Part shown: one piece after another, positions 284-6,680 of the stretch
Layout of the letters: each line of letters begins with the position of its first letter
Position numbering within the stretch: position 1 is the first letter of the stretch
Assembly: GCA_021837545.1 (NCBI GenBank)
Contig: JAKBFR010000060.1
Span: forward strand, 1 to 13,040
Length of the DNA: 13,040 nt
DNA from: Bacillota bacterium
GTDB lineage: Bacteria; Bacillota_A; Clostridia; Clostridiales; Clostridiaceae
Direction of reading: 5' to 3'
Program-made: the position numbers and the translations under genes
Notes under the pieces: generated by a model
The model's database searches: none
What the model was told of the DNA's origin: nothing
The model's input: only the letters and a program-made list of their open reading frames with translations

Positions 284-931
284 CTATATTTTCAAATAAA
301 GTCTATTTCCTTCTTTAAAATAAATTCCTTCTTCGCTCTTTCGAACTATTACTTTTCCATTTGTAGCTTCTACAATTTCATTTTCTATATCACCTGAAAT
401 TAACTTTTCTGATAATATATGAACTATTACCTTATCACTATATTCTGTATCTTCTATGTGCCAGGAATTTTGCCCGCATATATGTTGAATTCTGCCAAAT
501 AAATCATATTCTATTTCAAAGCTTAATTTTAGTCCCTGAACTTTTTCTACAATACCTGCAGCTTTTATGGCAATACTCGCCCCTTTTATATATGCTCTTG
601 TTAATCCACCTGTACCTAAAAGTATTCCTCCAAAATATCTAGTAACCACAACTGCACAATCTGTTATTCTACTTTTCTTCATTACTTCAAGAATAGGTAT
701 TCCTGCTGTTCCTTGTGGTTCTCCATCATCAGAATATCTTTGAATATTCATATTGCTTCCAATAATATAGGCAAAGCAATTATGCCTAGCTTGTTTATGC
801 ATATTTTTTATTTGATTTACAAAAGCTTTAGCTTCTTCTTCATTTTCAACTCTTTTTGCATATCCAATAAACTCTGATTTCTTTTCTTCAAATCTATCTT
901 CACCGAAATCTCTTATTGTAATATAGGACAT
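284..931 (-). CDS. yigZ: YigZ/IMPACT (UPF0029) family protein
   Basis: The 215-residue product has the usual length and layout of bacterial YigZ proteins. The N-terminal IMPACT domain (about 1-125) carries the family signatures KKSEFIGYA (17-25), ARHNCFAY (48-55), SDDGEPQGTAG (67-77) and VTRYFGGILLGTGGL (96-110). The C-terminal half (about 135-215) is the DUF1949 ferredoxin-like domain. The biochemical role in bacteria is not firmly known; the eukaryotic relative IMPACT/YIH1 restrains the Gcn2 kinase by binding Gcn1, and structures of bacterial members suggest nucleic-acid or ribosome contact. The ATG at 931-929 is preceded by AAAGGGG, about 11 nt upstream, and by AGGT closer in. The gene is monocistronic-looking: no terminator separates it clearly from yebC, but yebC has its own promoter. 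Confidence 0.93.
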   Translation of the reverse strand: MSYITIRDFGEDRFEEKKSEFIGYAKRVENEEEAKAFVNQIKNMHKQARHNCFAYIIGSNMNIQRYSDDGEPQGTAGIPILEVMKKSRITDCAVVVTRYFGGILLGTGGLTRAYIKGASIAIKAAGIVEKVQGLKLSFEIEYDLFGRIQHICGQNSWHIEDTEYSDKVIVHILSEKLISGDIENEIVEATNGKVIVRKSEEGIYFKEGNRLYLKI

Positions 932-3941: not shown

Positions 3942-3984
3942 AGATTCTTAGATTTAGTATTATTAATTCTAAATCTAAGAATCT
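3942..3984 (-). terminator. Perfect 16-bp hairpin overlapping the end of the unknown gene
   Basis: The arms 3942-3957 and 3969-3984 are perfectly complementary around an 11-nt loop. The TAG stop (plus-strand 3975-3977) lies inside the stem, so the last codons are part of the hairpin. In the minus direction it is followed by TTTCTACTATATT, a modest T-rich tract. It probably ends the hflX/unknown-gene transcript. Confidence 0.6.
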
Positions 3985-4628
3985 CTCTTAAAATCAAATG
4001 GTGGACAGTTTTTATCCATATTATCTAACTGACCAATATAAAATTTAATTCTTCTACTTAAAGCATCTAACACATCATCAATTTCATCATTCATTTTATA
4101 ACATAGTTCTAATGCATTTTTAATTTCTTTCTTCTCTCCAAATGAATTAATGTTTATATTATTTGCAACATTAGATATATTGGAAGCTGCAAAAGAAATC
4201 AGATTTACAGTATCAATCAATGGTCTCATTTGCCTTGTAAAATAAATACTACTTAATAGCTCAATTCTAAGTGAATCTGTATTATCTCTAGTTAATGTTA
4301 TAAGTGCTACAGAATCGCTTAAATTTTTAAGCTTATTTAGAAGTTCTTGTTGCTTTGCTTTTACCTCCTCACAACACTCATTAGTACTATCCGAACTTGT
4401 TTCTGATGTACTTTCATTAGCACCTGTATCACTGGTTTCTGTTGTACTTTCAGCGGTACTTGTTTTATTTTGTTCTACGTTACTTTTTAAAATAGATTTA
4501 GAAAACTCTTCATATGCTGATTTTTCTAAATTTTGTTGTTGTTTTAATAAATTAGACTCACCATTCTTCTCTCTACTCTTCTTTGATTTACCTTTTTTAG
4601 AACCACCCCTAGAATTTCGCTTCCCCAT
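3975..4628 (-). CDS. Hypothetical protein with basic N-terminus and Ser/Thr-rich linker
   Basis: I do not recognise this 217-residue protein. Residues 1-24 are very basic and Gly/Ser/Lys-rich (MGKRNSRGGSKKGKSKKSRE). Residues 25-55 look helical and Gln-rich. Residues 56-84 are a low-complexity Ser/Thr/Glu linker, followed by Cys85-Cys86. Residues 87-205 are predicted helical with amphipathic periodicity and no membrane segment. No signal peptide is visible, because the basic start is not followed by a hydrophobic core. The layout suggests a nucleic-acid- or surface-binding tail, a flexible linker and a helical bundle. The ATG at 4628 has a weak site (AAGGA about 10 nt upstream). It begins 55 bp after the hflX stop with no intervening terminator, so co-transcription with hflX is plausible. 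Function unknown; the reading frame is real by length and the well-placed hairpin at its end. Confidence 0.7.
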   Translation of the reverse strand: MGKRNSRGGSKKGKSKKSREKNGESNLLKQQQNLEKSAYEEFSKSILKSNVEQNKTSTAESTTETSDTGANESTSETSSDSTNECCEEVKAKQQELLNKLKNLSDSVALITLTRDNTDSLRIELLSSIYFTRQMRPLIDTVNLISFAASNISNVANNININSFGEKKEIKNALELCYKMNDEIDDVLDALSRRIKFYIGQLDNMDKNCPPFDFKRDS

Positions 4629-4683: not shown

Positions 4684-6474
4684 TTATTCTTGTGTAACAT
4701 AATCTCGAGTCTTGTTATATACCTCATCATCTACTTCAGCTAGCATATATGTACCATCATCTTTATAATCTTCTTCAATTATTCTAGCATTTCTATGTAA
4801 AAATGATTGAACATCACCTTTTTCATAAGGTATTAAATACTCAACTTTTCTATAATTATAAGGTAATTTTTCTTCTATTAAATTTAAAAATTCTTCTAAA
4901 TTAGTTCCTTCTTTAGCAGAGACTTCTATTACTTGTGTTTCATCTATGGCTTCTTTTATTATTGCTATTTGTTCTTCACTTGCTTTATCTATTTTATTTA
5001 AAACTAATATCATTTCTTTATTTACTACACCAAGCTCATTTAAAACTTCATTTACAGCTATATACTGTTCTACAGCAGTATCTGAAGATGTATCTATTAC
5101 ATGACATAAAAGATCAGAAAATATTACTTCTTCTAATGTTGACTTAAATGCTTCTACTAGCTCATGAGGTAACTTTCTTACAAATCCAACTGTATCTGTA
5201 AGAGTTATTAAACCCTTTTTTTTCAATGTTATTGCTCTTGTTGTTGTATCTAATGTTGCAAAAAGCATATCTGCTTCAAATACTTTTTCCTTTATTTTAT
5301 TTTCTTTTTTTGCAGCCAAGTCACAAAGTGCATTTCTCAAAGTAGATTTTCCTGCATTAGTATATCCAACTAAAGATACTTGAGGAATATTTTCTTTATT
5401 TCTTTTTTCTCTTTGAACTTCTCTAGTCTTTTTAATTTTTTTAAGTTCATCTTTTAAGTCATATACGGTTTCCATTATATGTCTTCTATCTGTTTCAAGT
5501 TTCTTTTCTCCAGGACCTCTCGTACCTATTCCTCCACCAGTTCTAGATAATACTGTCCCTAATCCTTTTAATCTACTTAATCTATATTTAAGTTGAGCTA
5601 GTTCTACTTGTATTTTAGCTTCCTTTGTCTTAGCTCTAGTTGCGAATATTTCCAGTATTAAAGTAGTTCTATCAATTACTTTTGCACCTATTGCTGCTTC
5701 TAAATTTCTAACTTGAGAACCTGAAAGCTCATCATCAAATATTATTACATTTGCTCTTTCTGTTTGTCTCATAGATGCAATTTCTAGAACCTTACCTTTA
5801 CCTATAAAATATGCCGCATCAATTTTATGTCTACTTTGAAATACTGTATTTAAAACAGGTACATTACACGCTTCTGAAAGTTCCTTCAATTCTTCTAAAC
5901 TTTCTTTTGTATCAGAACCAACTAATATTGCTTTTTCTTCTGTTTCTTCTATAACATCATTGGTTTTAATTAAATTCTCTATAAATCTTATTTTGTCTAT
6001 TATATTTATAGATGTTATTTCTTCTAATGAAAGATTACTTTTTTCTTCAAATTCCAATTTATTATTATACAAAGTAAGCATTCCTAGTGAAAAGTCTATT
6101 ATTTTTCCATCTATTATTGCTACTGACACAATTGCATCTAATTTTAGTTTTAAAAGTGCTGTTAAATCTAAAGCAGAAAGATTACAATAACCATTTGGAT
6201 GGGTATGAATTACTCTAATTCCTGATAATCTTTTTTCCTCTATATCTATTATTGGGACTTCAACTGATGTTGAATCTCCAATTGCAACAGACGTAACATT
6301 ACCTTTTCTACTTATTCCTACACTTACTTCTCTTTCAATGAAACTAGACACTCTAGAAATTATATTTAAAATTTCTATGTCACATACTTCATCTTTTAAA
6401 TTTTTAATAGAATAAATACTCTCTAATTCCTCTATTATAGATTTTCTAATTCCTTCAATATTTCCATATATCAT
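4684..6474 (-). CDS. hflX: GTPase HflX with extra N-terminal JAMM/MPN+-like domain
   Basis: HflX is a ribosome-associated GTPase that splits stalled or heat-damaged 70S ribosomes. The typical HflX part starts near residue 181 (KAILVGSDTKESLEELKELS). It contains the HflX glycine-rich signature GGGIGTRGPGEKKLETDRR (313-331) and a full G domain: G1 GYTNAGKST (370-378), G2 region around FATLDTTTR (405-413), G3 DTVG (427-430), G4 NKID (493-496) and G5 SAK (519-521). At 596 residues it is about 175 longer than E. coli or B. subtilis HflX (about 420-426). The extension contains HTHPNGYCNLSALD (90-103), an exact H-x-H-x7-S-x-x-D JAMM metal-site pattern, with Glu49 as a candidate upstream catalytic glutamate. 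The ATG at 6474 has GTGAGGT 6 nt upstream. It is followed by the unknown gene at 3975-4628. Confidence 0.96.
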   Translation of the reverse strand: MIYGNIEGIRKSIIEELESIYSIKNLKDEVCDIEILNIISRVSSFIEREVSVGISRKGNVTSVAIGDSTSVEVPIIDIEEKRLSGIRVIHTHPNGYCNLSALDLTALLKLKLDAIVSVAIIDGKIIDFSLGMLTLYNNKLEFEEKSNLSLEEITSINIIDKIRFIENLIKTNDVIEETEEKAILVGSDTKESLEELKELSEACNVPVLNTVFQSRHKIDAAYFIGKGKVLEIASMRQTERANVIIFDDELSGSQVRNLEAAIGAKVIDRTTLILEIFATRAKTKEAKIQVELAQLKYRLSRLKGLGTVLSRTGGGIGTRGPGEKKLETDRRHIMETVYDLKDELKKIKKTREVQREKRNKENIPQVSLVGYTNAGKSTLRNALCDLAAKKENKIKEKVFEADMLFATLDTTTRAITLKKKGLITLTDTVGFVRKLPHELVEAFKSTLEEVIFSDLLCHVIDTSSDTAVEQYIAVNEVLNELGVVNKEMILVLNKIDKASEEQIAIIKEAIDETQVIEVSAKEGTNLEEFLNLIEEKLPYNYRKVEYLIPYEKGDVQSFLHRNARIIEEDYKDDGTYMLAEVDDEVYNKTRDYVTQE

Positions 6475-6550: not shown

Positions 6551-6680
6551 AATTCGTAATGCATAATTCTGGAACAAGTTACTCAGTAACTTGAAATATA
6601 TATAATAAATATTGTAAAGATTTATTCCTTAGTTATGCATCGTGAACTGTATATTGTAAGTAAGCTGTGCGAATTATAAA
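6551..6680. repeat. Possible degenerate inverted-repeat element between hflX and hpt
   Basis: The 232-bp divergent gap holds a perfect dyad CAAGTTACT-C-AGTAACTTG (6575-6593). It also holds an outer inverted pair, ATGCATAA (6559-6566) and TTATGCAT (6633-6640). Further out, AATTCG (6551-6556) is mirrored by CGAATT (6670-6675). The arrangement resembles other structured intergenic repeats of clostridia but differs from copies A and B. It may equally contain operators for the divergent genes. No convincing promoter with ideal spacing was found for either gene. Confidence 0.3.

Follow-up and report, generated by a model that had tools for sequence, protein, structure and literature searches.

The window analysed here, a 13,040-nucleotide stretch of contig JAKBFR010000060.1 from a Bacillota bacterium of the family Clostridiaceae, carries on its reverse strand an hflX gene encoding a 596-residue GTPase in which the HflX core is preceded by a very probable JAMM-type domain. 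The protein scored 456.6 bits against TIGR03156, for which the curated cut-off is 216.75. The gene starts with ATG, and the presence of GTGAGGTG a few bases upstream suggests that this start is well placed. The gene is laid out as follows.

4684..6474, reverse strand: hflX, open reading frame for a 596-residue GTPase HflX with a predicted N-terminal JAMM-type domain (TIGR03156).
5950..6474, reverse strand: N-terminal extension ahead of the HflX core, residues 1-175.
5995..6393, reverse strand: predicted JAMM/MPN-like fold, residues 28-160.
6328..6330, reverse strand: Glu49, predicted catalytic glutamate, from its conservation and its alignment with the invariant Glu of RadC.
6166..6207, reverse strand: HTHPNGYCNLSALD, residues 90-103, with the predicted zinc ligands His90, His92 and Asp103 and with Ser100; conserved, and in register with RadC and the AMSH-like protease Sst2.
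5914..5961, reverse strand: linker of low model confidence, residues 172-187.
5401..5904, reverse strand: HflX N-terminal and middle domains, residues 191-358 (PF13167, 1.2e-31; PF16360, 9.7e-32).
4993..5382, reverse strand: GTPase domain, residues 365-494 (PF01926, 1.3e-17).

A sequence-only reading of this DNA had claimed that HflX carries an N-terminal extension of approximately 175 residues with the pattern H-x-H-x7-S-x-x-D at residues 90-103 and an upstream Glu49, and the protein contains exactly these features. The first HflX-specific profile match, in Pfam and NCBIfam, fell at residue 188-191. Counted from the preceding stop, 174-365 residues lay ahead of the core in HflX proteins with the domain compared to 18-116 in those without it. 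A six-frame reading of the window contained the pattern a single time, and it arose in 50 of 200,000 residue shuffles of the window HflX.

Conservation of the predicted site was examined in a close set comprising the window protein and 80 loci of 57-90% identity over the best segment, which were retrieved with HflX peptide patterns outside the motif. His90, His92, Ser100 and Asp103, whose conservation among close homologues had been proposed as a check in the sequence-only reading, were kept together with Glu49 in 81/81 sequences, and the invariant residues also included Ser51, Arg56, Thr91 and Pro93. The set was enlarged to 180 rows with 99 loci retrieved with a motif-containing profile. All five predicted site residues were kept in 173 of these 180 sequences, a count in which lost sites are more easily missed among the 99 added loci because the search profile contains the motif and so favours intact sites. 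Glu49 was kept in a fraction of 0.989 of the rows, and the top eight of 185 positions by conservation were Asp103, Ser100, Glu49, Thr91, Glu180, Gly66, His92 and His90. As a control against the bias, 59 loci were retrieved by the HflX model alone, 20 with the domain and 39 without. The site was intact in 19 of the 20 domain-bearing proteins. The single loss, L241, is the G462 gene and was already among the counted losses, and control row L248 is the same G001 gene as the intact L094. None of the 39 domain-less control proteins contained the pattern, and in all of them the core was preceded by at most 116 residues. An alignment of 82 of the 180 rows with identity down to 23% (A2) had Glu49, Gly66, His90, Thr91, His92, Ser100 and Asp103 as its sole invariant columns; this invariance is conditional because the seven rows lacking the His pair (L132, L160-L165) and many close relatives were omitted beforehand, as was L129, which has a long insertion.

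In JAMM enzymes, two His and one Asp hold the zinc, a Glu activates water and a Ser stabilises the intermediate; non-catalytic MPN relatives lack these residues. Since the Glu and the Ser of the HflX domain are as conserved as its metal ligands, an active metallo-hydrolase is the simplest reading, and this pattern of conservation suggests that the domain is probably an active hydrolase. The fold could instead serve as a docking module with no enzymatic role, one that helps HflX to grip or pry the ribosome and in which the metal is structural or absent, and the MPN- subunits of eIF3 and Rpn8 are precedents for a non-enzymatic JAMM fold. The mycobacterial HflX N-terminal extension promotes splitting, according to a review of mycobacterial HflX (PMC12493154), and in 7 of the 180 sequences the domain is retained but the His pair is missing. 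However, a scaffold should need neither Glu49 nor Ser100, which were kept besides the metal ligands in the 173 intact sequences, and the His-pair losses are confined to three family codes: f31 (L132), f116 (L160 and L165, from two genera) and f159 (L161-L164, from one genus). A pure docking role is consequently regarded as quite improbable. The L132, L160, L161-L164 and L165 lineages, in which the domain was kept and the His pair lost, are natural contrasts for a catalytic role. In seven pairs, the ratio of nonsynonymous to synonymous substitution rates (dN/dS) was 0.066-0.196 for the domain, compared to 0.073-0.150 for the remainder of HflX.

Residues 1-178 alone matched no Pfam or NCBIfam family up to an E-value of 10, and the window protein was not classed as RadC because it had no match to PF04002. 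Searched alone against the PDB, the window sequence gave nothing significant, with the plant receptor PYL3 at E 0.04, a phospholipase A2 at 0.18 and the AMSH-like Sst2 at 1.1. A profile of 51 close sequences (A1) found Sst2 at E 1.5. With the A2 profile, the nine best PDB sequences were all AMSH-like proteases (E 4.2e-4 to 1.3e-3), so that significant JAMM sequence matches were obtained only with this wide family profile and not with the single window sequence. HTHPNGYCNLSALD was in register with the HTHP..S..D of Sst2. Profile-profile comparison of the domain family with clostridial RadC using hhalign gave a probability of 89 and an E-value of 2.1e-6, with the Glu, His, His, Ser and Asp in register; the RadC alignment (A3) comprised 15 of 20 RadC loci, those showing the HNHPS or HEHPS pattern. 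Glu49 aligned with the invariant Glu26 of RadC, and HTHPNGYCNLSALD with the RadC segment HNHPSGDPTPSKED. This alignment bears out the choice of Glu49 as the candidate JAMM catalytic Glu. Pfam Prok-JAB was matched by 51 of the 82 A2 members (best E 9e-5), RadC by 27 and the next family by 5, and one fusion lay narrowly over the Pfam RadC cut-off (22.8 against 22.1 bits, neighbours in frame included).

Two AlphaFold models of the domain had predicted local distance difference test (pLDDT) values of 90 and 86. Their structure matches were mainly JAMM/MPN chains with moderate scores; 47/50 and 48/50 of the matches listed were of JAMM/MPN type, counting RadC, EMC and BubCD chains and some entries that we took to be of this type. 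Bacterial BubCD, Cap3 and Ubl-deubiquitinase complexes were among the matches. Model confidence was low in the linker from approximately residue 172, the last block means being 72 and 39 in one model and 59 and 47 in the other. Both the JAB/MPN similarity and the fold that had been put forward for testing were thus found, the former with family profiles and the latter with matches to the AlphaFold models. A chance motif in an unrelated domain would be compatible with the lack of a Pfam match for the window domain and with the moderate fold scores. We rejected it as exceedingly improbable given the 173/180 conservation of the site, the Prok-JAB, AMSH-like and RadC profile matches and the fold lists led by JAMM chains. 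Collectively, the motif, its conservation, the RadC profile-profile match, the AMSH-like profile match and the predicted fold indicate that the N-terminal extension is almost certainly a JAMM domain, in agreement with the JAMM/MPN+ identity assigned to it in the sequence-only reading.

With the A1 profile, the domain was detected in 141/146 genomes of the family, 90/291 of the class and 53/299 drawn across the phylum; 52 of these last 53 are labelled as outside the class, and the other is G001. Of the five unmatched family genomes, four had only short HflX (frames of 423-453 amino acids), and in the fifth a copy was truncated by a contig end. The listed fusion frames were 522-765 amino acids long except for four shorter ones (G148, G350, G385 and G395); the coordinates of three of these place them at contig ends. 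L127, L129 and L138, with HflX frames of 667, 765 and 735 amino acids, contain additional sequence within the domain or behind it. HflX was also present in frames of 574 and 615 amino acids in G432 and G478, the former listed without the JAMM domain. In 39 family genomes, 49 HflX were over the cut-off, comprising 43 long forms, 5 short forms that accompany a long one and 1 cut copy, and the long form was the sole copy over the cut-off in 28 of the 39. Two domain matches were found in 17/146 family genomes, and the second long copies from this group (L294-L305) had a complete JAMM site in 12/12, suggesting that the paralogues are also under constraint. The 185 residues of L175 (G473) used as a query were identical to those of the GTPase HflX of Heliophilum fasciatum; the fusion therefore reaches the heliobacteria. 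A quick FastTree tree was built from 132 HflX cores, 93 with and 39 without the domain, after identical cores and those shorter than 300 residues were dropped. The domain label changed 17 times on this tree (mean of 33.6 for shuffled labels), with at least 3 changes forced by well-supported branches. Cores that have the domain and cores that lack it are interspersed, suggesting several gains or losses.

A stand-alone form was searched for with the profile restricted to proteins of approximately 0.55-1.75 times the domain length, which gave matches of 91-413 amino acids. A clear free-standing domain was not found among the 119 short matches, many of which had HflX sequence after the domain or lay on short contigs. 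Five carried other Pfam domains (P0146, P0180, P0202, P0219 and P0237) and some lay on long contigs, so that a rare free form may exist. Gene neighbourhoods were surveyed at 31 loci using frames of at least 70 amino acids, with genes recurring in at least 4 loci recognised by eye. No ubiquitin-like, modifier or pathway gene was recognised among these recurring genes. The results bear on whether an active JAMM hydrolase in HflX might have an off-ribosome substrate, such as a small molecule, a sulfur-carrier-type protein or an unknown modifier, with HflX acting as a nucleotide or translation-state switch. Bacterial JAMM proteins have varied substrates, and the BubCD, Cap3 and Ubl-deubiquitinase complexes among the structure matches would suit such a role. 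Against it stand the lack of a recognised modifier or pathway gene in the survey and of a clear free-standing domain among the short matches, and we consider an off-ribosome substrate unlikely.

Other features of the neighbourhood were also recorded. A YigZ-type gene (UPF0029/DUF1949; window 284-931, reverse strand) was downstream of hflX on the same strand in 15 of the 31 loci, and a gene that we take by eye to be yebC was downstream on the hflX strand in 11. Directly downstream of hflX in the window is a gene for a 217-residue lysine- and serine-rich protein (3975-4628, reverse strand) with no Pfam match; a similar-looking basic protein forms a cluster in 4 of the surveyed loci. Between hflX and a divergent phosphoribosyltransferase gene, a perfect inverted repeat, CAAGTTACT-C-AGTAACTTG, was seen by eye at 6575-6593 and is a possible operator. 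The window had no match in Rfam.

HflX is a splitting factor whose Listeria paralogue HflXr gives antibiotic resistance via ribosome recycling, and duplications are reported in Firmicutes (PMC6310831). The C-terminal ~410 residues of the window protein would be an ordinary ribosome-splitting GTPase, its splitting of 70S ribosomes being presumed from the HflX family. The N-terminal ~175 residues would form a compact JAMM/MPN+ domain, most likely holding one zinc via His90, His92 and Asp103. By analogy with AMSH, Rpn11 and archaeal JAMM1, Glu49 would activate water and Ser100 would stabilise the intermediate. A short linker would connect this domain with the 50S-docking domain of HflX, and binding of HflX to a stalled or vacant 70S ribosome would thereby bring the JAMM domain to the subunit interface. 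There it may hydrolyse a peptide, isopeptide or thioester-type bond in an interface-bound protein, before or during splitting. Such a two-enzyme HflX acting on a protein at the 50S interface is our best overall explanation, towards which the balance tips modestly.

According to PMC12493154, the ND1 domain of HflX docks at the 50S interface and displaces H69, with a helical part extending toward the peptidyl transferase centre; the mycobacterial extension of 39-58 residues, which is located at this end of HflX, touches uL16 and 23S helix 38 and stretches as far as the H69-H71 junction. We infer from these contacts that the JAMM domain would lie near the subunit interface, not at the tunnel exit. 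GTP-bound HflX is described there as binding vacant 70S ribosomes or 70S with deacylated tRNA. As a substrate, a ribosomal protein, a hibernation factor or some other bound factor would thus be more likely than a tRNA-held nascent chain, and this binding preference counts rather against a nascent chain still on the ribosome. A ribosome-associated protein is the substrate that we favour, with as much doubt as conviction. The sequence-only reading had proposed a protein in which ribosome splitting goes together with the cleavage or binding of a nascent-chain or ribosome-linked substrate, and such coupling is conceivable for the domain arrangement described here. More speculatively, and with greater doubt, HflX could be a ribosome-rescue protease across Clostridia and their relatives, a zinc peptidase whose cut is coupled to GTP-driven splitting and a bacterial counterpart, on ribosomes, of the proteasome-lid protein Rpn11. 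At the 50S interface it would then cut a modifier that is attached there, a factor bound to the ribosome or a chain, whether nascent or already released.

Should the domain prove active, ribosome splitting in a large bacterial branch that includes Clostridium would incorporate a hydrolytic step, whose substrate would be directly searchable with one catalytic mutant. The results also point to a JAB-type family that is joined to a housekeeping protein and goes unreported by Pfam and NCBIfam in the window protein. No description of an HflX-JAMM fusion was found in the open literature among the matches listed, subscription literature being mostly outside this scope. The passages seen of the mycobacterial HflX review (PMC12493154) make no mention of JAB or MPN, and they note extensions in several Clostridium without naming a domain; those of PMC6514570 contain only 'jammed' or 'jamming' and not HflX. 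In the three papers that matched both HflX and JAMM, the second term proved to be 'jammed' or 'jamming' in two and the name of an author in one.

Among known systems, the AMSH-like deubiquitinases (S. pombe Sst2, human AMSH and AMSH-LP) have the HTHP-x6-S-x-x-D site and the fold in common with the HflX domain and were its best PDB sequence matches. These enzymes are eukaryotic, ubiquitin-specific and not fused to a GTPase, and in contrast no ubiquitin-like partner was recognised at the surveyed HflX loci. RadC (PF04002) is bacterial, and its Glu and H-x-H-P-x-G-x4-S-x-x-D are in register with the HflX domain, but it has its own HNHPSG signature and most of its frames are 223-285 amino acids long. 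Archaeal JAMM1 of P. furiosus and AF2198 share the compact JAMM fold and were among the best structural matches; they differ in that their solved chains are ~100-130 residues long and contain no HflX. Canonical HflX of E. coli and Listeria (lmo1296, HflXr) has the same N-terminal, middle and GTPase domains as the window protein and, to our knowledge, no JAMM domain. Although HflX is well studied in E. coli, Listeria and mycobacteria, we know of none there with a JAMM domain. Mycobacterial HflX also has extra sequence ahead of the HflX domain, but this is 39-58 residues long (PMC12493154), compared to the ~175 residues of the window protein.
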